A stretch of 64,000 nt of DNA, taken from NCBI RefSeq assembly GCF_000003855.2, contig NW_003101656.1, positions 278,618 through 342,617 of the forward strand, given 5' to 3'. Made by a program: the position numbers and the translations under genes. This DNA comes from Blastomyces gilchristii SLH14081 (lineage: Eukaryota; Ascomycota; Eurotiomycetes; Onygenales; Ajellomycetaceae). The notes beneath the pieces are model-generated. The model saw only the letters and a program-made list of their open reading frames with translations. It was not told the origin of the DNA and searched no databases. Of the stretch, positions 2,641-59,589 are shown one piece after another; the stretch's first letter is position 1; the number at the start of each line of letters is the position of its first letter.

Positions 2641-2772
2641 ATCTCATTTATTTTCATACATCACACATTTAATCTATTTTCAATGTCATGTCACCTGAAA
2701 ACAAAAACATCAAAAATAAAGAAAATCTCAAAACTCAGGATCTGTAAGGAATTTGAGGGCTGCAAGCCACTC

Positions 2773-4184
2773 TTATAATAATATCATACACATCTTCAAT
2801 TCCTCTACTGCTCTGTGTATGATATTAATATCATTTATCACAAGATTGGCTGAAATACTAATATAGAAATATGTACACATGAAAGTAGAAAAATTGAAGG
2901 AGAGCGCGGAACCCGCAGAATCAGAAGTCAGAACAGAGAGAACAGAGATGAAAGAAATAGAAGAAGAAGGTGCAGAACTGAATGAATGACAGCAGAAGTT
3001 ATCTGAGGTTAAATACTTATAACTCAGAGTGCACACAACCTTACTTACAGAGAAGATGTTGACAGAGAAAATGATAAGACAACCTTGAGAGTGAGAGAGA
3101 GTAGTTTCAGCAGTGTTATCATCTTCAATTAAAATGATCTCTGACACTGAAGTAACTAAGAACTAATAAAACTGTAAAAACAGAGATAATAATGATCAAA
3201 CAAATACTCACTGATCTTAGAATTGTACATATAATTACGACACACATGAGACTTCTCAGAAAGAGAGAGAGAAATGCAGATAAATACAGAAAGTAGAACA
3301 CAGCATACAAACAGCTCATTTTCATAATAACATTTCAGACAAGATATACAAGTCTCACACTCATGAGTGCAAAAGAGTACAATATCTGCATTCTTATTTC
3401 TGAAAACATGAATATCTTTTGCCTGCATCACAAAGTCAGATAACAGACATTAGAGAATAGACTGATATAAATCTGTAATTCTAAAGAAATTCACTATAAT
3501 GAATGTCTCTGCAATGTTGAACATTACAGTTGTAAAAAGTTTCTTAATATCTGTGAATATCATGACTTCATCCATAATAAAACTCATAACAATTTTCTCT
3601 AAGAACAGGAAAATCAGTGTTAGAAAGAGAAGATGAAAAAAGAAAGACTTACAATCTTAACACTAATGACAAGAGAAGTGATTCTTCAGTGCAAATGAAT
3701 GATTGTCTCATTATAAATACTTAAAATAAATATAATAATCAGCATTCATGACTGAGCTTTAGATAGTTATGTCATACACTATCTTTATACAATAAATTAT
3801 TCTAGAAATTGATAAGAAGAGTGAAAGTGTATATACTGAGAAACATGATTTATCAAGTCTATACAACATCTTCTTGAAATGAGAAGAGCTGATAATGAAG
3901 GCAGAAGTAGCAGAGGCAGACAGAGCAGAAGTAGTAGAAGCAGAAGTAAGAATCACAGAGACAGATGTAGAAGATGAAAAGAGAGCAGTAGAAGAGGCAG
4001 AGAAGAATACAGAAGACTCAGTCATATATAATACAGACAATTTCTTCATTATCTCATTCTTCAAGTTCTGAATCAATAATTCAATATTGAGATCACAATC
4101 ATTAGTAGATACAGATCTGTTAATATGTGAAGATTCTATATAAATTACAACAAACATATCAGTATCTGCATTCATACAAAACAT
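2773..4184 (-). pseudogene. C1 copy of the antisense accessory gene, decayed
   Basis: Three minus-strand stretches match the plus-strand gene of C2 at 52030-53518. 4184-3759 corresponds to the first ORF (start MNADTDMF, Ser/Ala-rich middle, FKKMLYRL block). 3431-3156 is the cysteine-rich exon, with CETCISCLKC kept and the fifth Cys changed to Tyr. 3147-2773 is the last exon (SEIILIEDDNTAETTLSHSQ). The intron donor GTGAGT is still present between the last two. The first ORF reads through where C2 has an in-frame TGA, which shows that stop is a C2-specific mutation. Function is unknown. The gene lies between pol and the 3' LTR, opposite to element transcription. Confidence 0.7.
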
Positions 4185-4719
4185 GATCAGAAAACATGAT
4201 TAAGAAACATAATCAGATACATGCTGAGAAAAGAAGATTAAGAGTGTATAAGAAGATGAAGAAGATGTGTTATTTATAATAGTATGTTCTGATAATCATT
4301 AGAAGATAAACAAGTCCTGATCATATTTCACAATGTGTTACACTTACTGCTAATAAACTGTCTGATATAAACACTACAATGACACTTGTTGTCAGAATGA
4401 GAGATAGATTATCACTAGAAATGTGTATAATATAATAGATAAACAGATATAAGATGTTGAACAGAAGAAGAGAGCAGGAATCTTGAAGAAGATAATGATA
4501 TTCAATGATGAGAATGATAAAGAAGATGGTTAAAGAATGAGAAAAGTTAGTGAATACGAGATGTAATATAGTGAAAGTTTCTTTATGAGAGTGTACACAG
4601 AATGCTAGCTGAATCAGAAATAGATTATATAATTCTGACCACTAGTGACATGCTGATCTGCATGAAGCTAGAGTGTATATTATGATTATATGAGTGTGAC
4701 TGAATCTGATGAGAGAGAA

Positions 4720-4901
4720 TGTGATTCAGAAGAATGTATAATTACTGAATAATAACACAGCTGCTTCTGAACTTGCTTACAAATGTAAAGAGGTCATAGC
4801 AGCTACTAATTAATTTAGTGTACTGTATATTAGTGTACTGTAAATAAGAAGCCGGTGTACGCCTGTAATCGTATGCTGGCTCAAGCAACCTTTGAATCAC
4901 A
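4720..4901 (+). repeat. C1 3' LTR
   Basis: This 182-bp sequence starts TGTGATTC and ends ATCACA. It is the reverse complement of the C2 LTRs (51324-51506, 59371-59553). A purine-rich tract, GATGAGAGAGAA, lies immediately before it and is the likely polypurine primer for plus-strand synthesis. Its CGTACG palindromes are mostly decayed; one CGTACG-derived block survives near 4855-4875. Confidence 0.85.
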
Positions 4902-6846
4902 TAGATGAAGAACTTCAATTCAGTATAAACTATCAAGAACTGAACTGATTAATAAAGAAAGATTATCACTCTTTATCTCTTATCATGAAACTCTAGTATT
5001 AATTAGAAAAGCTAATATTCATACAGCTAAATATCATTACTACTTTTCATAAGATTTGTATCATAGAAGAAGATGAGTGACTTACAGTATTTCAAACATG
5101 ATATAATCGCTTTAAATGAGCAGTAACATCTTTTGAATTGATCAACACTCTCAGTATATTTCAGAAGTATATCAACTGAGTACTCTCAGATTTTATTGAT
5201 GAGTGTGTATCTGTATATCTTGATACCATTCTCATCTTTACTGATAGACTTGGAAAAGAATATCAAGAGTATGTATAAAGAGTATTATCATAACTTTAAG
5301 AAGCAGAACTAATGATAGACATAAATAAGTATGATTTTGAAGTCAAGAGTATAAAATATCTGGATTTTATTATAGAAGTGAATATGATAATCTGAATGAA
5401 TTCTAAGAAGCTTTCTGTTATTTTTAAATGAGAGACTCTGTACACTGTGAAAGATGTACAAAGCTTTATCAGATTTGCTAATTTGTATTAATAATTTATA
5501 CAAACTTGTCAGATATTGCTAGATCACTCACAGAACTTATCAAGAAGAATTCAGTATTTCAATAATTAGCAGATACTAGACTAATTGCTGAGATCATGAA
5601 TTTCACATCTGATCTCACTTGATCTGATCTCATACAGTTCATGACATGAATCCCACCGGCACTAATCATTAAAACGCATGCAAAGTGACTATATATCAGA
5701 TGTCAAAATGAAATCACAACTTGAAAAAAATGAGAAAGTCATATCATTTCATTTCATTTAGTCTCATTCTTGACATAAAGTTACTATTTTTAGACATTTT
5801 AAGGTTTTTTTTAGACTATTTTTAATTTTTTAAAATTAACACTTTTTGATAACACTCAAATGAGATTTAAAGTCATTTAAAGGAATAAAAATAATTTAAA
5901 TTGAGAAGTGAAAATCATGGTCTCATTTGAAAAATGTGACAAGAGTAGACAGTAAGTTTCACTGAGACAGTATAAGACTATCATCTAATGTTAGAACCGC
6001 GTAATGAAATCTGTTGAATTGGCAATGAAACTATCAAAAATTCTGGTTCTGATCTCAGATACGGTCACATGATCAGCCTAGCAGATACTGAAGCGACATT
6101 TTCATCTGATAAGAAGATTTCCATTACTACCTCTCTGTTAATAACATTTAAATTCTGCCTGTGAGATAGGTTATTCAAGCTGATGACTCTGACTATATCA
6201 CAGAACAAGCTATATTGCAATATAATAATAAAGATATCTTATAATTATGTACTTTTATATCTAAGAAACTGAGTTCTGCTGAATGCAATTACAAGATCTA
6301 TGATAAGACACTTTTCATAATTATACACTGTCTAGAAGAATGAGACTTTGAACTTCAAAGTATCTTCAAATTTGATATAATGAGAGATTATAAGAATTTC
6401 AAACACTTTACTACTATTTATAAGCTTACTGAATAACAGATCTAATAATCTGAGCTATTAAGTTATTTTCATTTCATAATACACTATCACTCTGACAGTC
6501 AGAACTCAATGACAGATATTCTCTTATAGTAAGAGAAAGATATATCATCTGATATAATAGATACTTACTGAATGAACTGAGTACATCAGCTCTTAAATCT
6601 GAAGATACTAGTTAATTATAATGACATTACTTATAACACTATATACACTTCTCTGATTAAAACTATTACTGATGTTCTGACTTCTCTCAAATCTACACTA
6701 AATGAATTATAACATATAACAGCTCAGACTGATAGACTTCTTCAAATACTTACTAAGACAGTATATCAAGAAGCACTCTAATTTCTCTCAGAACTACACA
6801 TAAGAACTGATATTTCAGAATGCTTAATTAATGATAATAAAAGTCT
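4902..6846 (+). pseudogene. B1 reverse transcriptase / RNase H remnant
   Basis: This aligns with B3 13380-14870. The RT part (4902-5576) includes the ELN and LINETL-like blocks and the palm region, degraded around 5205-5235. MITE2 then interrupts it within a short linker, and RNase H continues to about 6480, with a [16 protein letters not shown] stretch near 6263-6310 typical of Ty3/gypsy RNase H. The 6500-6846 part is the linker to integrase. Stops are abundant, mostly TGA at Trp positions and TAA at Gln. The frame is interrupted at 6846 by gypsy A-. Confidence 0.8.
5577..6080 (+). mobile_element. MITE2, 504-bp hAT-type element
   Basis: The TSD GCAGATAC is perfect at 5569-5576 and 6081-6088. 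The left end is TAGACTAATTG and the right end is CAGCCTA, both decayed forms of the family termini. The body matches the other 506-bp copies, with GGTCCC changed to GATCTC throughout. It is inserted in the B1 sequence; B3 at 14053-14075 is the empty site. Confidence 0.9.
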
Positions 6847-15643: not shown

Positions 15644-17293
15644 AACTATATATCTCTCACCGATCCAACCGCCCCACCACGAACTCGCTCGATTTTTCGA
15701 ATAAGAACCCGCCAATAGATCCATCGAAAAGCCCTCGATCATACGAGCATTTGGACCCCATCGCCGACCGCATACCCCGTGTGGTGGTGGAGATATCCAG
15801 CCAAACGTGAACTAGACGTTGTTCGAAACTCCCGTGTGGGATTATCCCCTGTTCACCCCTACCACACCACAACCCCGGGCCAAAGTGCCATACAAATTGT
15901 AAGGTGAAGAGACCTAGCCATATGCGCCAATCTTCTCGATTTTGGAAGATCCCTGATCTGTAGTTGTGGAGATATCTGAGAAGCGACCTCCGCGAAAACC
16001 CTGTCCACCTTTGATGTTTCAAAATATCAATGCCAAGTCTCACCCTCGTACCGCCCTTCTCAATCTGGCCCATCCCTGGCAGAAAAATACAAAAAGATAC
16101 CTCAGTAATAATATCAAGCATATAATCAATGAACACTTCTGAAGTGTAATCTCCACAGTCTGTCATCAGTGTATCTAGACTTCAACACCAAGTCTCACCC
16201 TTGTACTACCCCTCTCAATCTGGCCCATCCCCAGCAGAACAATACAAAAAGATACCTTGACAACAGTATTTAATACATAATCAGTGAACAATGAGTCAAC
16301 AGCACATCAACAACTATAAAATCAGTATACTTCAAGATCTGACTGAGCCTTTAATCCCTGCACAGTGAGATATATTAAATCTAGTTTTAATATCTCAATA
16401 TTCAATAGATTCTGCAAGAGATTGAGAACAGCAACACTAGATTTCTATTGAATTTGAGAATTAACTCTATATTAATATAATCATTGACAAAGTCTTCTAT
16501 TTTAAGATATAAATAACCAGTTCCTCTACATCCTGCTGACAATATTTATATTATTATATAGAAATAGACTTATATTCTCTATAATATCAAGACTCTGAAG
16601 AGGGAAAGTCTTGATAGAGAATAAACAGTAGTGCATATCTTAGCAGTTTCTATCTCATTCTTCTGCAGCAGTTCATGCAAAAAAAAGATCTTAGAAATAG
16701 TTTTTTACTTCTCTTGAAAAAGTAAGGTGTTTTTCTCTGAATTTTACACAATATTCTTACAAAGAATAAAAAACAGAGCTGTTTTCTGTCATAATTTCAT
16801 ATTCTTTTAAGTAAGAATTACTTTTTCAGTGACTGAAGAGCTTTCATTAATACTTAATTCTTTTTTACACTCTTTATTAACTGATTTGAGTTGCACACTT
16901 GTTGTGTGAGAAGAATTGAATAATTTAGAATAAAATTAAATAGTTTTAATTAATTTCTCTGCAAAAAATTGATTTATTTTTTATCAGTTTTTCTCTCAAA
17001 AACTGTCATATCATCTGATTTATTATTAATTGATATCATACTCTTTCTCACTGTATTTCAAGAAAGAGATTGTAAAGATTTTATTAATTTATCTTAAAAA
17101 TCAATTTTAGTTTATTAGATTCTCTTCAAAAATCTAACCTAGTTACTGAACTAGTGTGAAAAAAATCAGGTGTTTTATACATAAAAGTCTTTTATTCTTC
17201 TTTTGAAACAGTCTGACCAACTTTTCAATTGAAAACAGACTTAGAAATATCTCAATTGAAACAGTCTGATCAACTTTTCATTGAGTGAGAACA
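15644..17293 (+). promoter_or_regulatory. L2 5' UTR with two promoter-like tandem monomers
   Basis: This is a 1.65-kb leader before ORF1. A block containing CCAAGTCTCACCCT and CAATCTGGCCCATCCC recurs at about 16033 and 16198, giving a period near 165 bp. The L1 leader shows the same doubled block around 30040-30290. LINEs with internal promoters often carry such monomers, so a promoter role is likely but inferred. Just before ORF1 (17200-17285) a second short direct repeat, AACAGTCTGA.CAACTTTTCA, occurs twice. The 15657-16166 minus-strand open frame looks like a chance frame. Confidence 0.6.
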
Positions 17294-18898
17294 ATGAGTT
17301 CAAAAATATACTCAGATAATATGAAAAAAGATGCTTTCTCAAATGCTATTTCTGAGATTGAAATTCTGAAGAGAAGAAAGAAAGAAGAAATAGAGAAATA
17401 ACAAGTTCTTGAAATACAGAAACTTGAAAAAGCAAGTAAGATTTCTGAAAAGCAGTGTCTGAGTGAGATGAATGAAGAAGTTCTATTAATTCTTCAGGCT
17501 CAGGCTAGACAACTACAGAAGATGATCAAGTTCAAACTTGAAATCTCAAACACAGTTTAAAAAACATTGAAAATTCCTAGTATAATCACTGACTCTTTAT
17601 CTTGCTCTTCTTCTTCTTTTTTTCCTACTTCTTCTTCTTCTTTGAATTAGAAGAAAATATATGCTCAAGCAGCTGAATCTGCTGTCTCTAAATCTGCTAT
17701 CTCAAAATCTGCTCAAAATCCTGAGAAAACTGAGAAGAATACTGCTCATATCTCTATTCATAGAAAAGTGAAAAAGAAAATGTAAAAAGAGAAAAACTTT
17801 CAAATCTTCAGAAATAGAAGACTTATTCTCAAAGTCTCAAATCAGGACATTCTGCAGAGAAACAAGCTAAACTCAAATCTTATTTTCAGAATTAGAAATG
17901 AAATTAATCAGCAGTTCTTTTCTCAGTTGATAACTGATATTGAAGTTCAAAAATCAGTTATAGCTTTAATTGAGTCATCATTCTTTAAAAACTTCATCAT
18001 TCTGACTACAATGCTTGAATTCAGTGCTGATTTCCTTATTCAGAATAAGAATCTCTGAAAGTCAGCAGTAGAATCTTTGCTAAACACAATAATTCTATCT
18101 GAAAGAGATGAAAAGTGAGACAAATTCATTCTTTATAATATTTCAGTTGAAATTTTTGACTGTGAAGAAGAAATGCTACTTCTCAAAAATGAATTGAAAG
18201 AATATAACTCTATTCAACTGAGAAAGAAGCCTGTATAGCTAAATTCAATTGAGTTCAGATAAAGCAGAAGAAATGTCTCTGTTCTAGTATATATAAAAAC
18301 ACTTGAAGAGTCAAAGATCTGTGAAGTAAGAATAGCAGATTTGAAAATGAGAGTTCATGAATACAAAGACTCAAGAATGAATTTCAAAGCTCAAACACAG
18401 TGTTCAAACTGTCAAAGATATGAACACTTTACAATCTCATGTTTTAGAGACTTAAAATATGCATTCTATACTAGAGATTATAAACCTAGTGAGTATAAAT
18501 ATGAAACATGCTTAAAAAGAGATGAAATATATCAATACACTCTGCTTAAGTGCTCTAATTGTAAAGAAAAACATGCATCTAGCTCAAAAGAATGTATATT
18601 TGCTTCTAGAACTCAAAAGACCTGAAGAAAAGATGAAGCTCAAAGTTAATCTAGAACTGAAGAGAAGAGTCAAGTCAGTAGACTTACAACTGCAAGCTTA
18701 AAAAGAAGAAACTCTCAACTATCTAAATCTTCAAACTTCAATTCTTCAGCTAAATATAAACAGAATTTGAATTCTCAAATCCCTGTTAAGATTAGAGAAT
18801 TGAGAAATAACTCTGATGATAAACTAGATATAATGCAAGCAGTTGAGATCCCTACTTTTCAAAATAGTTATAATCTACTATCTGATGATAGTGACTAA
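17294..18898 (+). pseudogene. L2 ORF1: gag-like RNA-binding protein
   Basis: The ATG at 17294 opens a frame of about 535 codons ending TAA at 18896-18898, with about ten in-frame stops but no frameshift. The N-terminus is Lys/Glu-rich and coiled-coil-like (KRRKKEEIEK), followed by a Ser-rich linker. Near the C-terminus are zinc knuckles: CSNCQRYEHFTISC (CX2CX4HX4C) and CSNCKEKHASSSKEC, preceded by a Cys/Tyr/His-rich segment at 18460-18560, as in ORF1 proteins of fungal Tad/I-type LINEs. Its role is to coat LINE RNA. The clean stretch 18341-18625 covers the knuckles. Confidence 0.85.
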
Positions 18899-18927
18899 AT
18901 TCTACTCTATCTCTACTCTCTTTTAGT

Positions 18928-21900
18928 ATGAATATACAATAACAACAATAAAAAAAGTTTAAAAACTCTTCAAAAATCATATTTATTCAAAATAATGTGA
19001 ATAGAAACTCAAATTGTATTTATTCTTGTCTTCAAATTACATTTGAATAAAAAGTTGATTTTATACTACTTCAGAAACTGAATTTTAATACTGAGTAAAA
19101 TTATATCATTTCTCATTCAAGCTACTACTGCTTTCTATCTCAAAAGTCTGAGATAAAGTCAAGAGTAGTGATCTATGAAAGAAAGAGATCAAGATATCAA
19201 TTTAATCTAAGATTTGATATCATGTCTGACACTGATATGCTGGTGAGTGATATTATAGATAAAGAAAATGAGTTTGATACTATACAGCTTATAAATATCT
19301 ATAATGAAAAGTCATTGAAGAAAAATAACAATATCTGAATAATTGATAGAGAATTTCTGAACATAACTCTATTAAGAAACTCTATAATTGCAGAAGATTT
19401 CAATACACATCATCTCTGATGAAATTCAGAATGCAAGAGAGCAGTGAGAGCTGATAATCTGATTAAATGAACTTTTAAGCATTTAATAGATTTGATTAAT
19501 AAGTCTGATCAACAAACATTCTTTAGAAAAGATATGAAACAGAAATCTATTATAGATCTAATCTTCATATCACAAAATCTAATGAAAAGAAGACTTGTAA
19601 ACTGATTTATTAATTCAAATGAGACATCAGAATCAGATCATGAGATTATTCAATTTAATATTGAACTGAGTGAAAAATAAATGAGTGAAAATCCTCTTCT
19701 CTCTAATCAGTATAACTTTGAAAAAGCTGATTGAAAAGCAGTTGAAGAAAGTATAAAACTGTTAAAATCTGAAAAATAGAATGAGCTATATTGAAATTCT
19801 GATCAAGATATCTCAAATGAAATGCTTGAGAATAGAGTGAAGCTTATTACATCTATTATTCTAACAAGTATTAGAGATAATATTTCAAAGAGAAAATCTT
19901 CTGAGTATTCAAAATCTTGATAAAATGAGAATATCTCATCTAAAAGGAAAGAATTAGCTACTGCTAGAAGAGAGTGAAAGAATGATGTAATATCTGATGA
20001 AGAGATCAAAGCTGTCAGAAATGAATATTTTTCAGATATTAAAAGAGCTAAAAGAGACTGCTGGAATAAATTTCTTGAAGAAGCATAAGAGAAGAAAGTT
20101 TTTAAAGCTTTTAACTATATTAAAACAAGAAGTGTAGCAAAACTTCCAGTCTTAGAATATGAGTTTCAGAATGAATCATATACAGTAAACTTTTTTGAGG
20201 AAAAATGTCAAGCTTTTATAAGAATTCTCTTTCAGAACTCACCAGATTCAGATTCAGATTCAGAGGAAGAGAATATATTACTTCTCAACTACATTGATGA
20301 AAATGACTGAGAATGGCCTGATCTTACACAAGATGAATTAGAGTCAGCTATCTTCTCAAGTTCTGTTAAACTGCTGCAGATCCTGATTCAATTAATCACT
20401 TAATTATTCAAAATACATATTCCTACTTAAAGAATGAATATTTTGAGCTCTTTTTCAATCTCTTGAAAAATGAATATCATTCTGAATGCTGAAGAGAAGC
20501 CACTGGAGTGATTCTTGCAAAATCTAATAGAAAAACTTCAATTTCTAAGTCATATAGAGTAATATCTCTATTGAACTGCCTAGAAAAGGTTTTAGAAAAG
20601 ATAATAGCTACTTAACTATCTTTTATAAGCTTTATAAGTGATTCTCTTTTATTCAGTGAACAAATGAGAGATAGAAAACAGTGTTCTGCAATTGACACTG
20701 TTCTCTCAGTTATTCATGATATTCAAATAGCAAAGTATGAGAGTCTGGTCTCAACTGTAGTTTTTATTGATATAAAAGAAGCATTTAATCATGTTTCAAA
20801 GTCAAAGTTAATTCAGACATTAAAGATATTAAAACTGTCACTTTCTCTAATAAAATGAATTAACTGTTTTATATCTAAAAGAATTATACAACTCTTCTTT
20901 GATGGAATGAAACAAGACAAGACTGAGATAAAAATAGAAGTATCACAGAGATCTTTAATCTCACTCATTTTATTTGCAATATACACTGCATATCTATTCA
21001 AAAATAGAAATATGAGAATAGTGCAATCTCTGAGTTATATAGATGATATTGATCTAGTCTACAGCTCAAAAACTATTAAAGAGAATTTAAAAGTAATTGA
21101 AGAAGCTGTAAAGAAAATCTTTGTTAGAGCAGATATTAATCAAATTCAATTTGATATGAATAAAACTGAGTTAATTCATTTCTTTTCTAGATTCAATGAG
21201 AAAGAACTATCTCTAACTCTTTTAAATAGAGAGATTAAACCCAGTGTAAATATCAAATAATTAGAAGTATGATTAAACTCCAAGTTGAATTTTAAATATC
21301 ACATTCAACAAAGAACTGTCAAGGCAGAAAGACTATTGAACAACATAATCAGACTATTAAATACAGAGAGAGGTCTATTCTTCCAGACTATGAGACAGTT
21401 ATATATAGCCTGTATTACATCAGTAGCTGATTATGAAGTTCAAGTTTGATGAAATAATCAAGAGAATTTCACTGAACTCTTTCAAAGTCTATAAAACAGA
21501 GCCTTGAGAAGAATTCTGAAAGCATTCAAATCATCTTCTATTAAAGCAATGAAAATTGAAGCTTCAATTTCTTCTCCTGCTATTAGATTTGAAAAGACCT
21601 GTATAAACTATGCTCTGAGAGTTGTAAAGATAAGCTCAAATCATATAATCAGAGAAAGAGTCTCTTCTTTATTTTCATTAATTAACTCTGGAAATAAACT
21701 GCATTGAAATAGATTTCTTGATTGAAATGAAAATAATTCTTCAAAGAAAATGTCTTCTCAACTGTACAGACTATACTCTCTGATTAAAAATCAATTTTCT
21801 TCTTTAAATGTTGAAAAAGTTGATTATGAGAAGTTATCTCTCTGGAGAGAAAAGCTTGAATCTCTTATAGACTTATAAATAAGTGAACTATTAAAAGAGA

Positions 21901-24649: not shown

Positions 24650-27345
24650 GGTTTAATCTCTCTATTTAAAAGAGTGAGAGATAGTTCTTTCTCATTGAAT
24701 TTAGAAAAGAAATGAATTTACTCAGTTTTATTTATATTAAACTGAATTTGATTGATATCTACACTGACAAAGATTTCCTTTGCAGCTTTTTCAATCACTT
24801 TCAAATTCTCTTTGATAGTTTTTAAGCTGTAGACTAGATCAATATCATCTATATAACTCAGAGATCACCCTATTTTTATATTTCTATTTTTGACTAGATA
24901 TGCAGTGTATATTGCAAATAAAATGAGTGAGATTGAAGATTCTTGTGATACTTCTATTCTTATCTCAGTCTTGTCTTATTTCATTTCATCAAAGAAAAGT
25001 TGTATGATTCTTTGAGACATAAAACAGTTAAGTCATTTTATTATAGAAAGTGATAGTTTTAACATCTTCAAAGTCTGAATTAACTTTGACTTTGAAACAT
25101 GATTAAATACTTCTTTTATATTAATAAAAACTGCAGTTGAGATCAGATCTTCATGCTTTGCTATTTAAATATCATGAACAATGGAGAGAACAGTGTCAAT
25201 TGTAGAACATTGGTTTCTATCTTTCATTTATTCACTGAATAAAAGAGAGTTATTAATAGACCTTATAAAAGATAGTTAAGTAGCTATTATCTTTTTTAAA
25301 AACTTTCCTAGACAGTTCAATAGAGATATGCCCCGGTGGCCGAATAGTTAATGCGGCCAGTAGTGCCTTGGCGTGGGAAACCAAGGCGCGTGGGTTCGAC
25401 ACCCGCAAGGAATACATTAAATCCGGAACTCAAGCACCTCAGGATTCTAATAAATACAGAGATGTACAAATCACTTCAATGAATCACTCTATGTTCCTGA
25501 GCTGGGAAGTTATTATTGCATGTATCTAATTATCACTTCTTTGTATTTTTCTATGTTCTTGTTATCTTGGCGTGGTCTCAACACCTGTATTTCCTTCTGT
25601 ATAATCAACACTTGACCTGTATTTAACATCACGCAAGGACTCATCATAAGCTCCGCTTGCATATGAGTATAATGAAAGAATAATAATAATAATAATAATA
25701 ATCAATAGAGATATTACTCTATATAACTTCGAAATTGAAATTTTTCTATTAGATTTTATAAGAATCACTTCAATGACTTCTCTTCAGCATTCAAGATGAT
25801 ATTCATTTTTCAAGATATTGAAAAAGAGCTCAAAATATTCAGTCTTTAAGTAGAAGTATGTATTTTAAATAATCAAGTGATTAATTGAATCAGGCCCTGT
25901 AGCAGTTTTAACTGAACTTGAGAAGATAGCTGACTCTAATTCATCTTGTGTAAGATCAGGTCATTCTCAGTCATTTTCATTAATATAGTTAAGAAGTGAT
26001 ATATTCTCTTTCTCTGAATCTAAATCTGATAAGTTTTGAAAGAGAATTCTTATAAAAGCTTAACATTTTTTCTTAAAAGAGTTTGCTGTATATAATTCAT
26101 TCTGAAACTGATATTCTAAGACTGGAAGTTTTAATACACTTCTTATTTTAGTATAGTTAAAAGCTTTAAACACTTTCTTTTCTTATACTTCTTCAAGAAA
26201 TTTATTTCAGCAGTCTGTTTTAGCTCTTTTAATATCTTAAAAATATTTATTTCTGACAGTTTTAAACTCTTTATCAGATATTATATCATTCTTTCAATCT
26301 CTTCTAGCAGTAGATAATTCTTTTCTTTTAGATGAGATATTCTCATTTCATCAAGGTTTTCAATACTTAGAAGATTTTCTCTTTGAAATGTTATCTCTAA
26401 TACTTATTAGAATAATAGATGTAATGAGCTTCACTCTATTCTCAAGCATTTCATTTGAAATATCTTGATCAGAATTTCAATATAGCTTACTCTGTCTTTC
26501 AGATTTTAACAGCTGTATACTTTCTTCAACTGCTTTTCAATCAGCTTTTTCAAAGTTAAACTGATTAGAGAGAAGAGGATTTTCACTCATTTATTTTTCA
26601 CTCAGTTCAATATCAAATTGAATACTCTCATGATCTGATTCTGATATCTCATTTGAATCAATATATCAGTTTATAAGTCTTTTTTTCATTAGATTTTGTG
26701 ACATGAAGATTAGATCTATAGTAGATTTCTGTTTCATATCTTTTCTAAAGAATGTTTGTTGATCAGACTTGTTAACTAAATCTATTGAATATTTAAAGAT
26801 TTATTCAATCAGATTATCAGCTCTTACTACCCTTTTATATTCTGAATTTCATCAGAGATGATGTGTATTGAAATCTTCTATAATTATAGAGTTTCTTAAT
26901 GAAGTTATGTTCAGAAATCCTCTATTAATTTTTCAGATATTAATATTTTTCTTCAATGACTTTTCATTATAGATATTTATAAGCTGTATAGTATTAAACT
27001 CATTCTCTTCATCTATAATATCACTCATCAGAATATCAGAGTCAGATATGATATTAAATCTGAGATTAAATTAATATCTTAATCTCTTTCTTTCATAGAT
27101 CACTACTCTTGACTTTATCTCAGAGTTTTGAGATAGAAAGCAGTAGTAGCTTGAATGAGAAATGATATATTTTTACTCAGCATTAGAATTCAGTTTCTGA
27201 AGTAGTATAAAATCAACTTTTTATTCAAATATAATTTAAAGACAGGAATAAATACAATTTGAGTTTCTATTCACATTATTTTAATTAAATGTGATTTTTG
27301 AAGAGTTTTTAAACTTTTTTTATTATTTTTATTGTATATTAATAC
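24650..27345 (-). pseudogene. L1 ORF2, 5' half: APE endonuclease and RT
   Basis: This is the minus-strand homologue of L2 18928-21243; the start ATG is mutated to ATT near 27343. The RT YIDD box reads on the minus strand around 24845-24870 and the endonuclease EDFN block around 26865-26885. SINE1 is inserted at 25330-25701 with a 13-bp TSD in the RT fingers region. Where L2 lacks one base near 20370, L1 has the full GTTAAAACTG, so that deletion is specific to L2. Stops are numerous. Confidence 0.82.
25330..25701 (+). mobile_element. SINE1: tRNA-derived SINE with (AAT)n tail
   Basis: The tRNA-like head (25330-25415) contains an A box, TGGCCGAATAGT, at 25337-25348 and a B box, GGTTCGACACC, at 25393-25403. 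A stem-loop, GCCTTGG...CCAAGGC, sits between them. The acceptor stem is only partly pairable, so it is not a functional tRNA. A body of about 250 bp and an (AAT)n tail follow. The 13-bp TSD TCAATAGAGATAT is perfect at 25317-25329 and 25702-25714, and the empty site is visible in L2 (20563-20580, reverse complement). It is transcribed by RNA polymerase III if active. Confidence 0.92.
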
Positions 27346-27372
27346 TAAAAGAGAGTAGAGATAGAGTAGAAT

Positions 27373-28945
27373 CTAATTACTATCATTCAATAGTAGATTA
27401 TAACTATTTTGAAAAGTAGAAATCTCAACTGCTTGTATTATATCTAGTTTAGTATCATAGTTATTTCTCAATTCTCTACTCTTATCAGAAGTTTGAGAAT
27501 TCAAATTCTGCTTATATTTAGCTGAAGAATTGAAGTTAGAAGATTTAAATAGTTAAGAGTTTCTTCTTTTTAAGCTTACAGTTGTGAGTTTACTGACTTG
27601 ACTCTTCTCTTCAGTTCTAGATTAACTTTGACCTTCAACTTTTCTTCAGTCCTTTTGAGTTCTTGAAGTAAATATACATTGTTTTGAGCTAGATGCATGT
27701 TTTTCTTTACAATTAGAGCACTTCAGCAGAGTGTATTAATATATTTTATCTCTTTTTAAGCATATTTCATATTTATACTTACTAGTTTTATAATCTCTAG
27801 CATAGAATGCATATTTTAAGTCTCTAAAATAAGAGATTACAAATTGTTTATATCTTTGATAGTTTGAACACTGTGTTTAAGCTTTGAGATTCATTCTTAA
27901 GTCTTTGTATTTATGAACTCTCATTTTCAAATCTGCTACTCTTACTTCAGAGATCTTTGACAATTCAAGTATCTTTATATATACTAGAATAGAGACATTT
28001 ATTCTGCTTTGTCTGAACTCAATTGAATTTAGTTATACAGACTCTTTTCTTATTGAATAGAGTTATATTCTTCTAATTCATTTTTAAGAAGTAGCATTTC
28101 TTCTTCACAGTCAAAAATTTCAACTGAAATATTATGAAGAATGAATTTGTCTCACTTTTCATCTCTCTCAGATAGAATTATTATGTTTAATAAAGATTCT
28201 ACTGCTGATTTTCAGAGATTGTCATTCTGAATAAGGAATTTCACACTGAATTCAGGCATTGTAGTCAGAATGATGAAGTTTTTAAAGAAGAATGACTCAA
28301 TTAAAGCTATAACTAGTTTTTAAATATTAATATCAGTGATTAACTGAGAAAAGAACTGCTGATTAATTTCATTTCTAATTCTGAAAATAAGATTTGAATT
28401 TAGCTTATTTTTTTGCAAGATATTCTGATTTGAGACTTTCAGAATAAGTCTTCTATTTCTGAAGATTTGAAAGTTTTTCTCTTTTTGCATTTTTTTCTTT
28501 ACTTTTCTATGAATAGAAGTATAAGCAGTATTCTTCTCAGTTTTCTCAGAATTTGAGCAGATTTTGAGACAGTAGGTTTAGAGACAGCAGATTCAGCTCC
28601 TTAAGCATATATTTTTCTCTAATTCAAAGAAGAAGAAGTAGTAGAAAAAAAAGAAGAAGAGTAAGATAAAGAGTCAGTGATTGTACTAGGAATTTTCAAT
28701 ATTTTTTGAACTGTGTTTGAAATTCCAAGTTTGATCTTGATCATCTTCTGTAGTTATCTAGTCTGAGTATGAAGAATTAACAGAACTTTTTCATTCATCT
28801 CACTCAGACACTGCTTTTCAAGAATCTTACGAACTTGTTATTTCTCTATTTCTTCTTTCTTTCTTCTCTTCAGAATTTCAATCTCAGAAATAGTATTTAA
28901 GAAAGTATCTTTTTTCATATGAACTAAGTGTATTTTTGAACTCAT
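27373..28945 (-). pseudogene. L1 ORF1 remnant
   Basis: This is the minus-strand counterpart of L2 ORF1. The ATG is at 28945-28943, the Lys/Glu-rich N-terminus follows, then the Ser-rich linker, and the zinc knuckles lie around 27640-27900. The length is not a multiple of three against L2, so small indels exist. Several stops occur. The product was a gag-like RNA-binding protein. Confidence 0.75.
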
Positions 28946-30668
28946 TATTCTCACTCAATGAAAAGCTCATCAGACTGTTTTAATTGAGATATTTATTAAA
29001 CTCTTTTAAAAAGTTGATCAGACTGTTTCAATTAAGAGATTTCTAAGTCTGTTTTCAATTAAAAAGTTGATCAGACTGTTTCAACAGAAGAATAATAGAC
29101 TTTTATATATAAAATACCTGATTCTTTTCACACTAGTTCAGTAACTAGATTAGATTTTTGAAGAGAATCTAATAAACTAAAATTGATTTTTAAGATAAAT
29201 TAATAAAATCTTTACAATCTCTTTCTTGAGATACAGTGAGAAAAAGTATAATATTAATTAATAATAAATCAGATAATATGACAGTTTTTCAGAGAGAAAC
29301 TGATAAACAATAAATAAATTTTTTACAGAGAAATTAATTAAAACTATTTAATTTTATTCTATATCATTTAATTCTTCTCACATAATAAGTATGCAACTTA
29401 AATCAGTTAATAAACAGTATAAAACAGAATTAACTATTAATAAAAGCTCTTCAGTCACTGAAAAAGTAATTATTACTTAAAAGAATATAAAATTATAATA
29501 GAAAACAACTCTGTTTTTAATTCTTTGTAAGAATATTATATAAAACTCAGATAAAAAGACTTACTTTTTCAAGAGAAGTAAAAAACTATTTCTAAAATTC
29601 TTTTTTGTATTAATTGCTGTAGAAGAATAAGATAGAAACTGCTAAGCTATACACTACTATATATTCTTTATCAAGACTTTCTCTCTTCAGAGTCTTGATA
29701 TTATAGAGAATATAAGCCTGTTTCTATATAATAATATAAATCTTATCAGTGAGATGTAGAGAAACTGATTATTTATATCTTAAAATAGAAGACTTTGTCA
29801 ATAATTATATTAATATAGATTTAATTCTTAAATTCAATAGAAATCTAGTATTGCTGTTCTCAATTACTTACAGAATCTATTGAATATTGAGATATTAAAA
29901 CTAGATTTAATATATCTCACTATGCAGAGATTAAAGACTCAGTCAGATTCTGAATTATATTGAATTTATAGTTATTGATATGCTGTTAACTTGTTCTATT
30001 AACTTGTTATTCACTGATTATATATTAAATACTGTTATCAAGGTATCTTTTTATATTATTCTGCTGAGAATGAGCCAGATTGAGAGAGGTGATATGAGAG
30101 TGAGACTTAGTAATAATGTCTAGATACACTGAAGACAGATAGAGTATTCACAGAGATTGCACTTCAGAAGTGTCTGTTGATTATGTGCTTAGTATTATTA
30201 CTGAGGTATCTTTTTGTATTTTTCTGCTGAGGATGGGCCAGATTGGAAAGAGCGGTAACTTACAAGGGTGGGACTTGGCGTTGATGTTTTGGAACATCAA
30301 AGATGAACAGGGTTTTCATGAAGATCACTCCTCAGATATCTTCACAATTACAGTTTGAGAATATTTCACAATCAAGAAGATTGGAGCATATGGCTAGGTC
30401 TCTTCACCTGACAATTTGTATGACAATTTGGCCTGGGGTTGTGGTGTGATAGGGGAGAATGGGGGATAATCCTACACAGGAGTTTTGAACAATATCTGGT
30501 CCATGTTTGGCTGGATAACTCCACCACCACACGGGGTATGCGGTCGGCGATGGGGTCAAAATGCTTGTATGATCAAGGGCTTTTTGATGGATCTATTGTC
30601 GGGTTCTTATTCGAAAAATCGAGCGCGTTCATGGTGGAGCGGTTGAATGTATGCTTGTATAGTCTTGA

Positions 30669-49900: not shown

Positions 49901-51323
49901 GCTCTGACTAATGAACTTCTTCAGACTCTCACTGAAGCAGTATATTAAGAAGCACCTTGATTTTTCTCAGAACTATGTATAAGAACTGATATCTCAGAAT
50001 ATTCAATTGATAACAATACCACTCTATGATTCTGTAAACAATACTGAGTCTTTCACTCTGAACTCTTACACATCTGAATAATGTTATAGATGCATGATTT
50101 GTACATGACTGACTATTCAGACTATGAATAACTGTATAGAATGAGCTTCTGAGAGTTCTACTGATCTGAGATATTAAATAGCATCAGATACTTTGTCTGA
50201 AACTGTAATTACTATTATTCTGTTATCTCATGAAAGAGCTGTAGAAAAGATCTATTAAAATCACTTAATATCTTTAATAAAATCTGATAAGATGTAGTAA
50301 TTGACTTTGATATTAATCTATCTAAGAGTAAGAATTATAAAAACATTCTGATCATCATGAATCAATTAAGTAAAGATATAATATTGAAATCTTGTAATAA
50401 GATGAATATTAAACAAGTTACTGAAGCTTTTCTACAGATCTTATTCTATCAGATATATGAATTACTGAGATCTATAGTATTAGATCAGAGTTATTAATTT
50501 ATAAGTACTCTCTAAATAAGAATCTGTTAAGTTCTTAAGATTATATACTATCTATTAACTATCTATCACTCTGAGACTGATAATATATCAGAACAGATAA
50601 TTCAGACTGTAAAGAATTATCTCTGTAAGTTCTGTAATCACTTATAAAATGATTGACATGATCTACTTCTACACACAGAGATTACTATTAATAAATGAGA
50701 TATTATTTTAACAGATATAAGTCTGTTCTTTCTTACACACAGTTATTACATGAAGATGTTGAATCTTTCAGAGATTACACTGTTCATATCAGATCTCTGC
50801 AGTTCAATTCAGATCACTAATAATATAGTAATAAATCTCTGAGATACTCATAACTGAGTAGAGATCTTCATAGTAACTATAAAACAAGATTAAGAGAATT
50901 AAATCAATGTTCACTGAGACTCTGCTGAATAATATAAGATAGAAGACTTGATATAATTAAATCTTAAGAATATACAGATCATATGTTCATCTTGTATACT
51001 GAATTACTATTATATCAAGTATAAACTGATAGAAGTTCTAGATAGTTATAACTACTGTCTTAACATATTATCAGAGATTTATAATATCTTTTATACAAGC
51101 TTACTCTGCTGTGTTGTTACTGATCTGTTCTCTTCTCAACTGACTTCTAACTGACAGCTGTCAGATATCATAGAAGAAGATAATAAGCTTGAGTGAGAGA
51201 TTGAGAATATTCTTGATAAGAGATTCTGTGACTGCAGCTGATAATATTTTATGAAACAAGTTAGTTATAATCAACTGATCTGAACTCTGAGTTCTATGTT
51301 ATCTGAAACAGCAGTTCTTGACT
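46955..51323 (+). mobile_element. Gypsy B4: 5'-truncated chromovirus, 3' part beyond C2
   Basis: This aligns with B3 from 11745 on, so the LTR and start of gag are missing. The gag knuckle at 47511-47552 preserves CINC and the final Cys. Protease is near 47800, RT at about 48430-49190 (YLDNILIF near 48890, second catalytic Asp changed to Asn) and RNase H at 49240-49690. Integrase is at 50030-51120, and the chromodomain starts at 51179. C2 interrupts the chromodomain at 51323 (target GACT), and B4 continues at 59554-59895 with the end of the domain and the 3' LTR. Stops abound. Confidence 0.85.
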
Positions 51324-51506
51324 TGTGATTCAAAGGTTGCTTCAGCCAGCGTACGATTACAGGCGTACGCCGGCTTCTTATATATTGAATCTCGTACGCT
51401 AATTTAATTAGCGGCCGCTATGGCCCCTTTACACTTGTATGTGTACACTAGTAGTTCGGAAGTGGCCGCGGTATTATCCGATGGTCGTACATTCTTCTGA
51501 ACCACA
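51324..51506 (-). repeat. C2 3' LTR
   Basis: This 183-bp LTR reads TGTGATTC..GAACCACA on the plus strand. It carries several CGTACG palindromes and GCGGCCGC. Against the 5' LTR it differs at 14 positions, all transitions inside CpG; eight of the mutated states are in this copy. Confidence 0.93.
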
Positions 51507-51809: not shown

Positions 51810-53518
51810 AATGGCCCCTCATTCTCACAACAAGCGTCATTGTAGTGCCCATACCAGGCAGTTTGTTAGCAGTAAGTGTAACATGTTGTGAAACATGATC
51901 AGGGCTTGTTTATCTTCTAATGATTGTCAGAACAATGTATTATCATGAATGATGACACACCTTCTTGTACACCCTCAATCATTTCTCTTCTCAGTGGGTT
52001 CCTGATTGTGTTTTCTGGCATGATTTTGCATGAATGCAGATGCTGATATGTTTGTTTTTATTTGTATAGAATTATCATGTGTTGACAGATTCACATCCAC
52101 TGATGATAGTAAACCCAATGTTGAATCATTGATTGAGAACTTAGAGGATGTGATAATGAAGAAATTGTCTGTGTCATGTGTGGCTGAGTCTTCTGCATTC
52201 TCTTCTCTTCTCTCTGTTCCTTTCTCTGCTGCTCCCCTTCAATCTCCTACACCTGCCCCTGTGTCTGGTTCTCCCGCTCCCGCTACCCCTGTTCCTGCGA
52301 CCCCCACTTCTGCCACTCCTGGTTTTGCCACCTCTGCTTTTGTTACCAGCTCTCCCTGATTCAAGGAGATGTTGCATAGGCTTAATGAACCATGTCTCTC
52401 AGTGTGTACACTTCTGCTCTTCTTGCCAACTCCCAGAACAATTTATTGTATGAAGACTGTGTACAACACAACTATCTGAAGCTCAGTTGCAGACACTGAT
52501 TATTACATTTGTTTTAAATATTTATAATGAGACAATTATTCATTCATATCAGAGAATCACCCCTCTTCTCAACAGTGTTGAGATCATGAGTCTTTTTCTT
52601 TTCATCTTTTCAATCTGACACTGATTTTCCTGTTCTTAGAAGAAATTGTTATGAGTTTTACTGTGTATGAAGTTGTGACATTCACAGATATCAAGAAGCT
52701 TTTTACAATTGTAAAGTTCAATATTGCAGAGATATCTGCTCTGATGAATTTCTTTAGAATGATTGATCTGTATCAGCCTATTCTCTGATGTCTGTCATCT
52801 GACTTTGTAGTGCAGGTGAAAGATATCCGTGTTTTCAGAAATGAGAACACAGATGTCATACTCTTTTACACTCACAGGTGTGAGGCTTGTATGTCTTGTC
52901 TGAGATGTCATTGTGAGAATGAGTCATTTGCATACTGTGTTCTGCTTTCTGCATTTCTCTGTGTCTCTCTCTCTCTTTCTGAGAAGCCTTGTGTGTGTTG
53001 TAATTGCATGTACAATTCTAAGACCAGTGAGTGTTTATTCAGTAACTGTTCCCATCTCTGATTTTGTGATTTTCATATGCTAACAATAATTCTTAGTTGC
53101 TTCAGTGTCAGAGACCATTCTGATTGAAGATGATAACACTGCTGAGACTACTCTCTCTCACTCTCAAGCTTCTTCTGTCACTTTCTCTTCCTTCTCTGCA
53201 GGGAAGGTTGTGCACACACTGAGTTATAAGCATTCAGCTCTGAGTGACTTCTGTCATTCATCTGATCCTGTGTCTTCTTCTTCTTCTATTTCTTTCACCT
53301 TCACTTCCTCTGCCCTGACTCCTGGTCCTGCAGGTCCTGTGCTCTCCTTCAATTTCTCTATACATACATGTGCACATTTCTATATTAGTATTCCAGTCAA
53401 TCTTGCAATCAATGACATTAATGTTGTACACAGAGTGATAGAGAAATCAGAGACATGCATGATGTTATTACAAGAGCAGCTTGTAACTCTTGAATTTCTT
53501 ACAGACCTTGAGTTTTGA
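51810..53518 (+). CDS. Antisense accessory gene in gypsy C2, cysteine-rich product
   Basis: Runs opposite to C2 transcription between pol and the 3' LTR. Parts visible: a possible first exon, MAPHSHNKRHC, at 51810 followed by GTAAGT at 51870. An ORF at 52030-52479 has a Pro/Ala/Ser-rich middle (52200-52350) and one in-frame TGA at 52357 that C1 lacks. A second coding block from about 52642 to 53026 has one Trp-type TGA at 52786. The last exon is 53097-53518. The second block holds a CX2CX2CX2CXC cluster (52879-52914) and CVCCNC (52987-53004), suggesting metal binding. The intron 53027-53096 joins the last two in phase. I recognise no family. Some fungal gypsy elements are reported to carry extra antisense ORFs (from memory: Boty of Botrytis); relatedness is untested. 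Confidence 0.6.
53027..53096 (+). other. 70-bp spliceosomal intron in the antisense gene
   Basis: Donor GTGAGT at 53027, branch-like GCTAACA at 53079-53085 and acceptor TTAG ending at 53096, at a typical fungal size. Splicing joins the cysteine-rich frame (codon starting at 53026) to the frame SVSETILIEDD without a shift. The donor is kept in C1 (reverse complement near 3205-3215). A sense-strand retroelement RNA would not show plus-strand splice signals, so this supports a real antisense gene. Confidence 0.7.
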
Positions 53519-53629: not shown

Positions 53630-56600
53630 GACTCTTACAGTTGATGATCAATTCATCATCTCTTTTCTTACACTTTTTCTCTATCTGCTAGTCACTACTC
53701 TTATACAATCTCTATATGATACAGCATTCAGTGACTAGGTTCAGCAGCTTCTAACTTTTTATAATTCTGTCTCATGCATTATACTGTCTCTCTTCACCTG
53801 CTCAGATCACTATAGTGAACAGCTCATCAAAACTAACCTCATCTGATCTCTGAGTGTTCTCAGAGGTCAAGATGGCTTGATCTCACATGTCTGTGAATGT
53901 TTCAGATAGTTCATCCTCTGTAGTCTTCATGATTGAACTGGTGTAAACAGTTGAATTCAACTCTGAATTTCTTTTTCTTCTGTGACCTGACTCATGTGCA
54001 AGTCTGCTGCTTTGAGATCACTCTTTGCTGTGTTGCACTCACTGTCTGTGATGTGTTATTGTATGATCAGCTACAGTCTCATCACTTATTAAAGTATGAC
54101 ATTCACCTGATTTCTTCATTTCTTCCCATTCTTTCCTTATAATTGTGAAAAGATCAGAATAAGTGAGATCATCTGATTCATAAGTATCTATGATTTCTCT
54201 TACTTCATGAGACTTTTCAATTGTAAGTCTCTTCTTTTTCAATGCTGACAATAGTGCTGTGAATGATCATAATCTGCTCAGGTCTTGCATCTTTGCTTTC
54301 ACAAGTTATGAATCATTGATTAAGTTGTGTAAGATCTGTTCCCCTGATTCTTTCAATGTGTACATTCTCAGAGAATGTGATTTGAGTATTTTATATGACT
54401 TAAATTATCTAGGTTGGAACTTCTCAGGACTCTCATTGTGTATAAGAACTCACATTCTCATCTTGAGACTCAATTCCTTAACAAGTGAGTCTTGTATTCT
54501 TTTCAATTGAATTGCTCAGTTCAGGAGTAACTCATTAGCTTTTGTGCATGCATGGCTGATCTCTTTCAATCTTGATTCTGCATCTGTGACTGTTGCATCT
54601 GCAACTGCTGTTTCTACTGCATCTGCAACTGCTCTCTCTCTCATCTTTTCTAAAACATTCTCCAGAATGCGCGGATGCAATTCATACAACAGGTAGAATG
54701 ATGAACACTTGAAGACTGCATGCTGTTGAATCCGCATGGCCAATAGTGCCTGTCTGAGATATTCATCTCATAGTCTCATAGGCTTACTCACTAGATATTT
54801 CATCAGCATGTTACTCAAGATTTCATTCAAGTGTTCCATCTTTCTGTTTATCTGTAGATGATATGATGTTGTTCTACAATGTCTTGTCTGTAACTGGCCT
54901 ATGAAATATCTCACTGCTTCTTCTACAAGATTCACACTGTTATCAGTTAGAATCTTGCGCGGTATTTCATAGTTGACATAGATCTCATCATGTAGAAACT
55001 TCATCATCATCTTCTCTGTTGTCTCTGGAACTGCTCTTGCAACTGGCCAGTCAGTAGTGTAATCAATAGCAGTGATTATTCATTGATTTTCATTTGATGT
55101 TTGCAGCAATATGTCTATGAGATCCATCTCTCATCATTTGAATGATTGTATTGTACACTCTACCTGATGTTGTGCTTTCTCACATTCTAATCCTTTCTTA
55201 GATTCTTTCATAACCTGGCAATTCAGGCACTTGTGAGTGTACATCTGAATGTCCTCAGCCATGCTTAGTCAGTATACTCTTGGTTTGAGTATACTCATGA
55301 GTTCAGGGCTTTCTAAGTGATCAAATTCCTTGTGTATGTAAGTCATCAAGTTACATCTAAATGAAGATTCTAGATAGGGAGCTTCTGTGTATTCTAGATT
55401 GCAGTAAAGCACAACATTATTTTCATTTCTCAATTTTCCCAGCTTGAAGTTCAGAAGCATCTCTTCTACTACTCTTGTGAGACACTTGTTATCTGACATC
55501 TTACCATTCTCTAAGTGAGAGATTATAATGTTCACTCATTCTGATTTCTTGCATTCTCTCAGTGTGTTTAACATGAACATCTCTTGTGCCTGGTTTGCAG
55601 AACTCTCACTCATGAAATTGAGTCTGTGACTGATTGCATCCAGCACCACTGTGTTCAATCTCTTTTAGTATTTGATATGAAGATCATACACTTGGAACTC
55701 TGAGATTCAATGTGCTAAGCATTTGAAAGGTTTTGTCATTGATTGTAGATAGATGAGGCTTTTGTGATCTGTGATCACTGTTGTTGTATGCTCATTGTTG
55801 ATATATCTATCTCACAACACCAGCATGTGCTTGATCACTAGCAATTCCTTTTCATGCACTGAGTAATTGAGCTCAGCGCCTGATAGTTTCCTACCATCAT
55901 ACATCACCAGGTGCAGCTTGTCATCCTTGCTCATCTGTAGAAGAGTGCCTCTGATAGCTCATTTGAATGCATCTGTCTTGATGTAGAAAGGTTTATCATG
56001 ATCTGATTGAATAAGCACTGAGAATGTTATTACACATTCTCTCAGTGTGAGAAAAGCCTCTTTGCACACAGCATTTCAGATGATTGAATAAAACTTCTTC
56101 TTTTGCAGATTTGTATCTGTTTCTCTTAAGAGATCTGAGAGTGATGCAGATATTCATGCAAAATCCTTGATGAACCTGCAGTAGTATGAGACCAACTCAA
56201 GAAACTGTCATACATGGTGTACATTTCTCAGCCATGGCTAATTTGCTATGACATTCAATTTCTTCAGGATGAGGTGTATACAGCCATCACTTACTATATG
56301 TCTCATGAACTTCAACTCTTCTGTTCCAAATACACACTTGATTGATTTGATATAGAGCTTATGCTCTGTCAGAGTTGTAAGCACTTCATCAAGATGCTTC
56401 AGATGTTCATTGTATGAGTTTGAAAAGACTAGGATGTCATTGAGATATATAAGGCATGAGGTTTCATTCTGTTTATAAAGAATTGTATTCATTATTGTTT
56501 GAAAGATGACAGATGCATTTGTCAGACTGAATGATATTGCTAGGAATTCGAACTTCTCTCATTGTATATTAAATGCAGTTCACAGAACTGACAGTTCATC

Positions 56601-57560
56601 TATGCAGATCTGCCAGTATTCTGAGAGAAGATTGATCTTCAATAGATATCAGGTGTTTTCAACTGTATCCAACTGTTGTTGAATCTGTGACAGTGAATAT
56701 TCATTCTTGATCATTAGCTTGTTGAGTGCTTGATAATTGATACACATCTGTCACTCTTCACCTGTCTTTTTCACAAATAGAACTGGAAAGCCTCACGCGC
56801 TTGATGAGAGTTGTATGAGACCACATTCTAGAAGGTCTGTGATCTGATGCTTCTGTTCTTTGAGGTGTGTTTGTGACAGAGAGTACACATTCTGGTTGAC
56901 TGGTTTTGCATCCCCTGTGTCAATCTCATGTATGAATCCTCATTCCAGCGACAATTCTGATGGAAGATCTGTTCAGAAGACCTTCCCATGCTTCTCCAGA
57001 AGCTTCTTCATATGCTTATCCTCCCACATATCTTTTATCTTAGTTTCCTCCACTTCCAGGTCTCATATGACATACAGAATGCTTTCAGATGAGGTCTTGC
57101 AAATCATTCTCTTTGCTTGTTGATGTGTAAGCAGATTTAATCCTTCTATATCAGAGATGTGGAATGTCCTTCTCATATCAGTTGATAGAATTGTATGAAC
57201 CATTTTCTTCCTATTGATCAACTGCATATAGCATGTACATCATTGAATCTGCGGATTGAACCTTTAAAATCAATCAAGTTCAAGAATAAGATTGTATTCC
57301 ACATTCTGCAGCTCTCACGCCCAAATATAGCAAGACCATTCTCTGAAGTGCAAGAGAACTCTTACTTTTGCAGGTGATATCAAATATCAGTTATTAAGTA
57401 ATCTTATGTGTTGAGAATCCTTCACTCAGCAGACCTCTTTCAATCTTTGAATTATATAATCATCAATATATTGTGTCAAAGCTCCTGTGTCTGCTAACAC
57501 TTTTGCAGCCATCTCTCAATTCTTATTCAAGTGTCTCTTATACATTAACATTTCAGGCCT
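53630..57560 (-). pseudogene. C2 pol: RT, RNase H, integrase, long C-terminal extension
   Basis: The open stretches 56492-56238, 55535-55269, 55010-54768, 54743-54516 and 54251-54039 are all in one phase, so pol has stops but no net frameshift across 2.4 kb. The RT box YLNDILVFS (first Asp changed to Asn) is near 56445. RNase H has TDAF near 55970 and TDHKSL near 55770. In integrase, the first Asp lies in AIDYTTDW near 55055, the second in TDNSVNL near 54945 and the Glu in MEHLNEIL near 54835. A charged tail (KEWEEMKKSGE, Ala/Val/Asp repeats) extends to about 53630. I see no chromodomain. Confidence 0.85.
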
Positions 57561-59370: not shown

Positions 59371-59553
59371 TGTGATTCAAAGGTTGCTTCAGCCAGCATA
59401 TGATTACAGGTGTATGCCGGCTTCTTATATATTGAATCTCATACACTAATTTAATTAGCGGCCGCTATGGCCCCTTTACACTCGTACGCGTACGCTAGTA
59501 GTTCGGAAGCGGCCGCGGTATTATCCGACGGTCGTACGTTCTTCCGAACCACA
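59371..59553 (-). repeat. C2 5' LTR
   Basis: This 183-bp partner of 51324-51506 has CpG sites mutated at six positions. It contains CGTACGCGTACG at about 59483-59494 and two GCGGCCGC sites. The flank GACT (59554-59557) is the TSD. Confidence 0.93.
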
Positions 59554-59589
59554 GACTGATGAGAACTGCTTCTGAAAGAGAGAGACTAA

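Follow-up and report, generated by a model that had tools for sequence, protein, structure and literature searches.

The question raised by this locus is whether a reading frame on the strand opposite to the reverse transcriptase and integrase of a gypsy retrotransposon is a gene and, if so, to which family it belongs and what it may do for the element. The locus lies in a stretch of 64,000 nucleotides (the window; contig C26:278618-342617) of the 74.8-Mb genome of Blastomyces gilchristii SLH14081. Blastomyces is a human-pathogenic fungus with GC-poor tracts rich in gypsy elements, as described in the available part of PMC4595289, and the element concerned, gypsy C, is repeated many times in the genome.

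Gypsy C2 and its surroundings

The following features were identified in the copy called gypsy C2:

51324..59553, minus strand: gypsy C2, complete element of 8230 bp (LTR pair and flanks)
51320-51323 and 59554-59557: target duplication GACT of gypsy C2 (flank comparison)
51324..51506, minus strand: 3' LTR, 183 bp (LTR pair)
59371..59553, minus strand: 5' LTR, 183 bp, 92% identity to the 3' LTR (169/183)
54408..55664, minus strand: integrase, zinc-binding and core domains (PF17921, PF00665; Pfam match)
56241..57263, minus strand: reverse transcriptase (PF00078; Pfam match)

The reverse transcriptase and integrase were detected with TGA read as W. With an LTR pair, a reverse transcriptase, an integrase carrying both the H2C2 and the core domain, and a target duplication, C2 is a gypsy LTR retrotransposon. 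Four further copies with long flanks were inspected, and in three of them (L031, L032 and L034) LTR pairs are found ∼8.05-8.06 kb apart, measured from start to start. In the fourth (L033) no direct LTR pair was found within the fetched stretch, whose start falls inside the element; an inverted partial copy is present there.

As proposed in the preliminary description, an antisense gene could be located inside C2. It occupies 51811-53518 on the plus strand, between the integrase and the 3' LTR and opposite to both pol domains, and thus lies between the two GACT-flanked LTRs. In other gypsy elements this is the place of env, which would suit a structural or envelope-like particle protein. The opposite strand and the failure of Pfam scans to return any envelope or coat family make such a protein very unlikely.

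CpG is depleted in the window (0.16 of expectation), as are CpC and GpG (0.44 and 0.37), and between the LTRs of C2 CpG is at 0.00-0.14 of expectation. The LTRs retain CpG, with 14 and 16 sites per 184 bases (1.43 and 1.56 times the expected number); their 14 differences are by eye all of the CpG type, and they seem to be spared by the decay. The decay affects CpC/GpG as well as CpG, and copies have TG or CA at one and the same site, which differs from the CpA pattern usual in fungi. Elsewhere in the window, the longest open frame (15657-16166, minus strand, 169 aa) has no Pfam match and lies outermost in one of the two 4.6-kb arms of an inverted repeat (about 15663-20265 and 26006-30648).

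Exon model and coding evidence across copies

NCBI gene models of the antisense gene exist in two Blastomyces species (BDBG_17024, BDCG_06430). The exon model combines 31 copies (L031 and 30 other loci) with BDBG_17024 mapped on its own locus, by which intron 2 was placed. The revised model has four predicted exons and 1392 coding bases, a multiple of three:

51811..51871, plus strand: predicted exon 1 (ATG in 26 of 31 copies, ATA in 5)
51872..52069, plus strand: predicted intron 1 (donor GT in 31/31 copies, acceptor AG in 31/31)
52070..52576, plus strand: predicted exon 2, rich in Pro/Ala/Ser/Thr (a single frameshift among 31 copies, in L009)
52577..52639, plus strand: predicted intron 2 (donor GT in only 17/31 copies, AT in 14; acceptor AG in 30/31)
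52640..53041, plus strand: predicted exon 3, carrying DUF3716 (length constant in 31 copies)
53042..53096, plus strand: predicted intron 3, revised (donor GT in 24/31 copies, AT in 7; acceptor AG in 30/31)
53097..53518, plus strand: predicted exon 4, stop TGA (ILIEDD in the NCBI models, predicted C-terminal helix)
2731..4172, minus strand: antisense gene in the older copy C1 (protein match at 4172-3240 and 3162-2731)

A single intron with donor 53027 and acceptor 53096 had been described before. The gene is indeed predicted to contain introns and the acceptor was retained, but three introns are predicted instead of one and the donor had to be replaced. Three GT-type candidates compete for the donor of intron 3, at 53000 (NCBI models), 53027 and 53042. 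GT is present at 53000 in all 31 copies, at 53042 in 24, and at 53027 in 23, the other 8 having GC. As all three share the same phase, frame alone cannot choose between them. The candidate at 53042 reads GTAACT, and a CTAAC branch-like site lies within the intron that it opens. In less decayed copies the match to DUF3716 crosses both 53000 and 53027 and reaches profile position 58 of 59; in a piece of the L003 copy ending at 53025 it extends only to position 52. Donors 53000 and 53027 were rejected since each cuts the domain. Judged by the extent of the domain, the predicted donor at 53042 fits better than 53027.

C1 had been said to keep the same exons. The same protein could be read there in the two blocks listed above, with an exon 1 that is 4 bases longer. 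Loss of an intron was observed in none of the 31 copies. Because the genomic RNA is antisense to the gene, the introns would not be spliced out of it and would survive RNA copying.

Among the 31 copies, the net length change is a multiple of three in 30 for the coding and in 21 for the noncoding sequence. When distinct gaps were counted, 8 of 9 in coding but only 10 of 38 in noncoding sequence are multiples of three (p 0.001; 0.0014 without L030). The noncoding control ends at 53780. A control that included 53801-54300 (Fisher p 3.3e-4 for gaps, 4.7e-33 for transversions) was discarded, since L030 does not align in that part and L019 aligns only partly.

As the decay seen here makes transitions, transversions are the cleaner coding test. 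They are distributed 17/10/29 over codon positions 1/2/3 (p 0.007), or 9/9/28 when the low-complexity stretch 52190-52345 is left out (p 0.0004), and are flat in the noncoding control (15/14/11, p 0.72). Alignment columns with transversions are also rarer in exons (56/1392) than in introns and 5' flank (40/607, p 0.017). The comparison of synonymous and nonsynonymous transversions is not significant by itself (43/56 nonsynonymous, 0.833 expected, p 0.13). Internal stops occur in 30 of the 31 copies, including C2, which has 6 under the revised model; L031 alone has an uninterrupted frame through all four exons. The antisense gene of gypsy C is coding, and the C2 copy itself is dead. Looking at the window copy only, with its 6 stops and lack of a Pfam match of its own, one might suppose that both the open stretch and its splice signals arose by chance. 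Given the frame statistics, a curated domain scoring above its threshold and a copy open over all four exons, this is hardly credible, and the assignment of gene, strand and domain is held with high confidence.

The DUF3716 domain and its distribution

The earlier statement that no matching family was known does not hold. DUF3716 (PF12511) could be identified: less decayed copies score above the Pfam cut-off of 22 bits, as do both NCBI models. A 79-residue native piece of L003 matched with E 9.7e-7 and 29.1 bits, and in the whole-genome scan the L003 and L031 copies reached 37.8 and 34.1 bits, respectively. BDBG_17024 (23.0 bits) and BDCG_06430 (30.3 bits) match profile positions 2-31 only; BDBG_17024 matches only the first half of the domain because its exon 3 ends early. 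For the same exon-3 piece of C2 no Pfam match was obtained.

A CX2CX2CX2CXC cluster had been reported for the gene. Two of its cysteines, at 52897 and 52906, are the CX2C of DUF3716 and are Cys in 26 and 23 of 31 copies, otherwise Tyr. The remaining three vary among 31 copies (30 loci and C1), with C/H/Y/L counts of 23/5/3/0 at 52879, 20/6/4/1 at 52888 and 17/5/9/0 at 52912, and all are Arg in BDCG_06430 when compared by eye. As the cluster is mostly a decay artefact, the argument based on it mostly fails. The Pro/Ala-rich region was recovered, with 47% P+A in residues 71-130 of BDCG_06430.

Profile and structure searches with the predicted protein had been recommended; the former yielded DUF3716, the latter no match. 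A Foldseek search with the structure model gave 95 matches in the PDB at E values up to 10 and none at E 0.001, and a single PDB sequence match (E 0.31) was taken as chance. A C-terminal helix is predicted at residues 424-459 of BDCG_06430, in a structure model that is otherwise poor and has a mean pLDDT of 40.6. BDCG_06430 contains a basic pattern resembling a nuclear signal, which was not found in BDBG_17024. ILIEDD resembles a SUMO-interaction motif. Rfam at gathering scores gave no match. Among the candidates scored, a part of the total in the first two of three protein searches by shared 5-residue words, only Blastomyces entries matched (at least 39, at least 6 and 3 proteins).

The gene was found at no fewer than 43 places in the genome with C2 as query and at least 44 with L003, with 40 of 848 and 836 candidates scored, respectively. 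For 24 of the best 40 integrase hits, a listed gene place is found on the expected strand and side at a distance of at most 3 kb. The distances between integrase and gene at these 24 places are 888-889 bases in 10 cases, 886-893 in 5, 1360-1415 in 7 and 1827-1829 in 2; most of the longer distances come from matches to the DUF3716 domain alone. The integrase hits were compared with 61 gene places, a part of all matches, so that for the other 16 of the 40 hits the absence of the gene may be real or may reflect the incomplete list of places.

DUF3716 itself has at least 74 matches over the cut-off in the genome (150 of 189 candidates scored). It is also present in two further repeat families, of which the L040 family was found at 23 places and the L044 family at 44. 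When the 74 matches were sorted against 25 gypsy C places, 28 of the 44 L044-family places and 22 of the 23 L040-family places, at least 14 fell to gypsy C, at least 8 to the L044 family and at least 7 to the L040 family, these counts being lower bounds; 45 fell to none of them. A survey of related gypsy elements for the gene had been suggested, and it revealed a second family. L056, a member of the L040 family for which DNA comparison with the window gave no match at E 1e-10, has RNase H and the integrase zinc domain on the plus strand and DUF3716 downstream on the minus strand. Its layout is that of gypsy C, with DUF3716 antisense and downstream of integrase. In L055, a member of the L044 family, a Pif1 2B helicase frame lies on the plus strand and DUF3716 on the minus strand (3247-5631); its flanks match the window at 16545-20172 and 26099-29740, and its first 2.5 kb are without G or C and are probably N.

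DUF3716 was also found in DNA of host-like composition, at least in L035 (56.6 bits, GC 0.49) and L038 (GC 0.47). The L035 match (1501-1686; contig C1:270009-270194) is the best in the genome and lies in an open frame of 218 codons in DNA of normal composition, which is likely a host gene; the CX2C...C...CX2C...C pattern of the domain could be read there too. These occurrences, and the fact that almost every gypsy C copy inspected is dead, could be explained if an ancestor of gypsy C had captured a host DUF3716 gene that is of no use to the element. Such a passenger would not account for the constraint on frame and codons over the copies, nor for the recurrence of this layout in another gypsy family, and this explanation is considered rather unlikely.

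Known antisense genes and a possible role in element regulation

The preliminary description regarded antisense genes as rare in LTR elements, which needs a caveat. In the plant gypsy element Retand, antisense ORFs between pol and the 3' LTR are usual, and for their TRP28 (PF04195) protein, whose function is unknown, DNA binding and element regulation have been proposed (available part of PMC11963269). HTLV carries at its 3' end a spliced antisense gene, HBZ/APH, with a nuclear product that represses sense transcription (PMC3185765, in the part available). Gypsy C shares with Retand the element class and the antisense coding region between pol and the 3' LTR, but its host is a fungus and not a plant, its domain is DUF3716 and not TRP28, and it has three predicted introns; the word intron is not mentioned in the accessible main text of PMC11963269. 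A Pfam scan at E 1 gave no match to TRP28 in the NCBI models P0005 and P0006. With HBZ/APH it shares the position at the 3' end of a retroelement, its own splicing being predicted from splice signals. It differs in that the start codon lies ∼300 bases inside the 3' LTR border and not within the LTR. No bZIP family match was obtained by Pfam scan of P0005 and P0006, only the predicted C-terminal helix.

No fungal element of this kind was found in the titles and abstract openings surveyed. DUF3716 was not found by name and PF12511 only in a passing mention; here the domain is found inside retrotransposons. The Blastomyces gypsy families of PMC4595289 and PMC11540331 are from the same genome and of the same element class, and their names were not matched to gypsy C; in the parts available, DUF3716 is not mentioned in PMC4595289, nor antisense in the main text of PMC11540331. 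The latter word is also not mentioned in the main text of PMC3248453. The place of the gene is thus of a known kind, and its domain, predicted introns and fungal host were found in no paper.

That the gene is an accessory gene and possibly a regulator of the element, as suggested before, is the best reading of its anatomy; the role we infer. As a whole, we tentatively describe a gypsy element with an antisense DUF3716 gene of four predicted exons, the product of which is likely a nuclear regulator of the element, a description to which we give close to, though short of, an even chance. The antisense transcript would start from a promoter that lies within the 3' LTR or adjoins it, and three introns would be spliced out of it. 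The protein would enter the nucleus and might pair via its predicted C-terminal helix. Its DUF3716 domain would bind zinc, and nucleic acid or chromatin, and act on the DNA or chromatin of the element, with feedback on gag-pol expression like that of HBZ of HTLV-1 or that proposed for Retand TRP28. Such feedback is our first choice because HTLV antisense products repress sense transcription and Retand ones are proposed regulators (available parts of PMC3185765 and PMC11963269). Drawn by analogy, it is a possible role to which we would give somewhat less than an even chance.

Instead of regulating its own promoter, the element might use the protein as a shield against a host methylation or mutation system. 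CpG and CpC are strongly lost in the repeats of this genome, so such a defence is likely, and the likeness of ILIEDD to a SUMO-interaction motif would suit this function. The internal regions of the element are heavily decayed all the same, and counter-defence appears distinctly unlikely.

Beyond gypsy C, DUF3716 might be a mobile regulatory module. Two gypsy families, with the gene antisense and downstream of integrase, and the repeat family in which it lies beside a Pif1 helicase would each have taken it up, to run their own expression or to block the host's CpG/CpC mutation defence. This broader proposal is unlikely on present evidence.

With these results, DUF3716, a Pfam domain without known function, gains a place and a testable idea. 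Antisense accessory genes with predicted introns are placed in fungal retrotransposons, which gives a hint how introns persist through an RNA stage, and CpG decay can create false cysteine clusters. According to the available part of PMC11540331, gypsy elements make up about half of the Blastomyces genome; a protein controlling gypsy would therefore bear on genome growth in this pathogen. If the proposal of a DUF3716 module is true, HBZ and Retand TRP28 have their counterpart in fungi, and DUF3716 proteins of the host may belong to a silencing or counter-silencing system.
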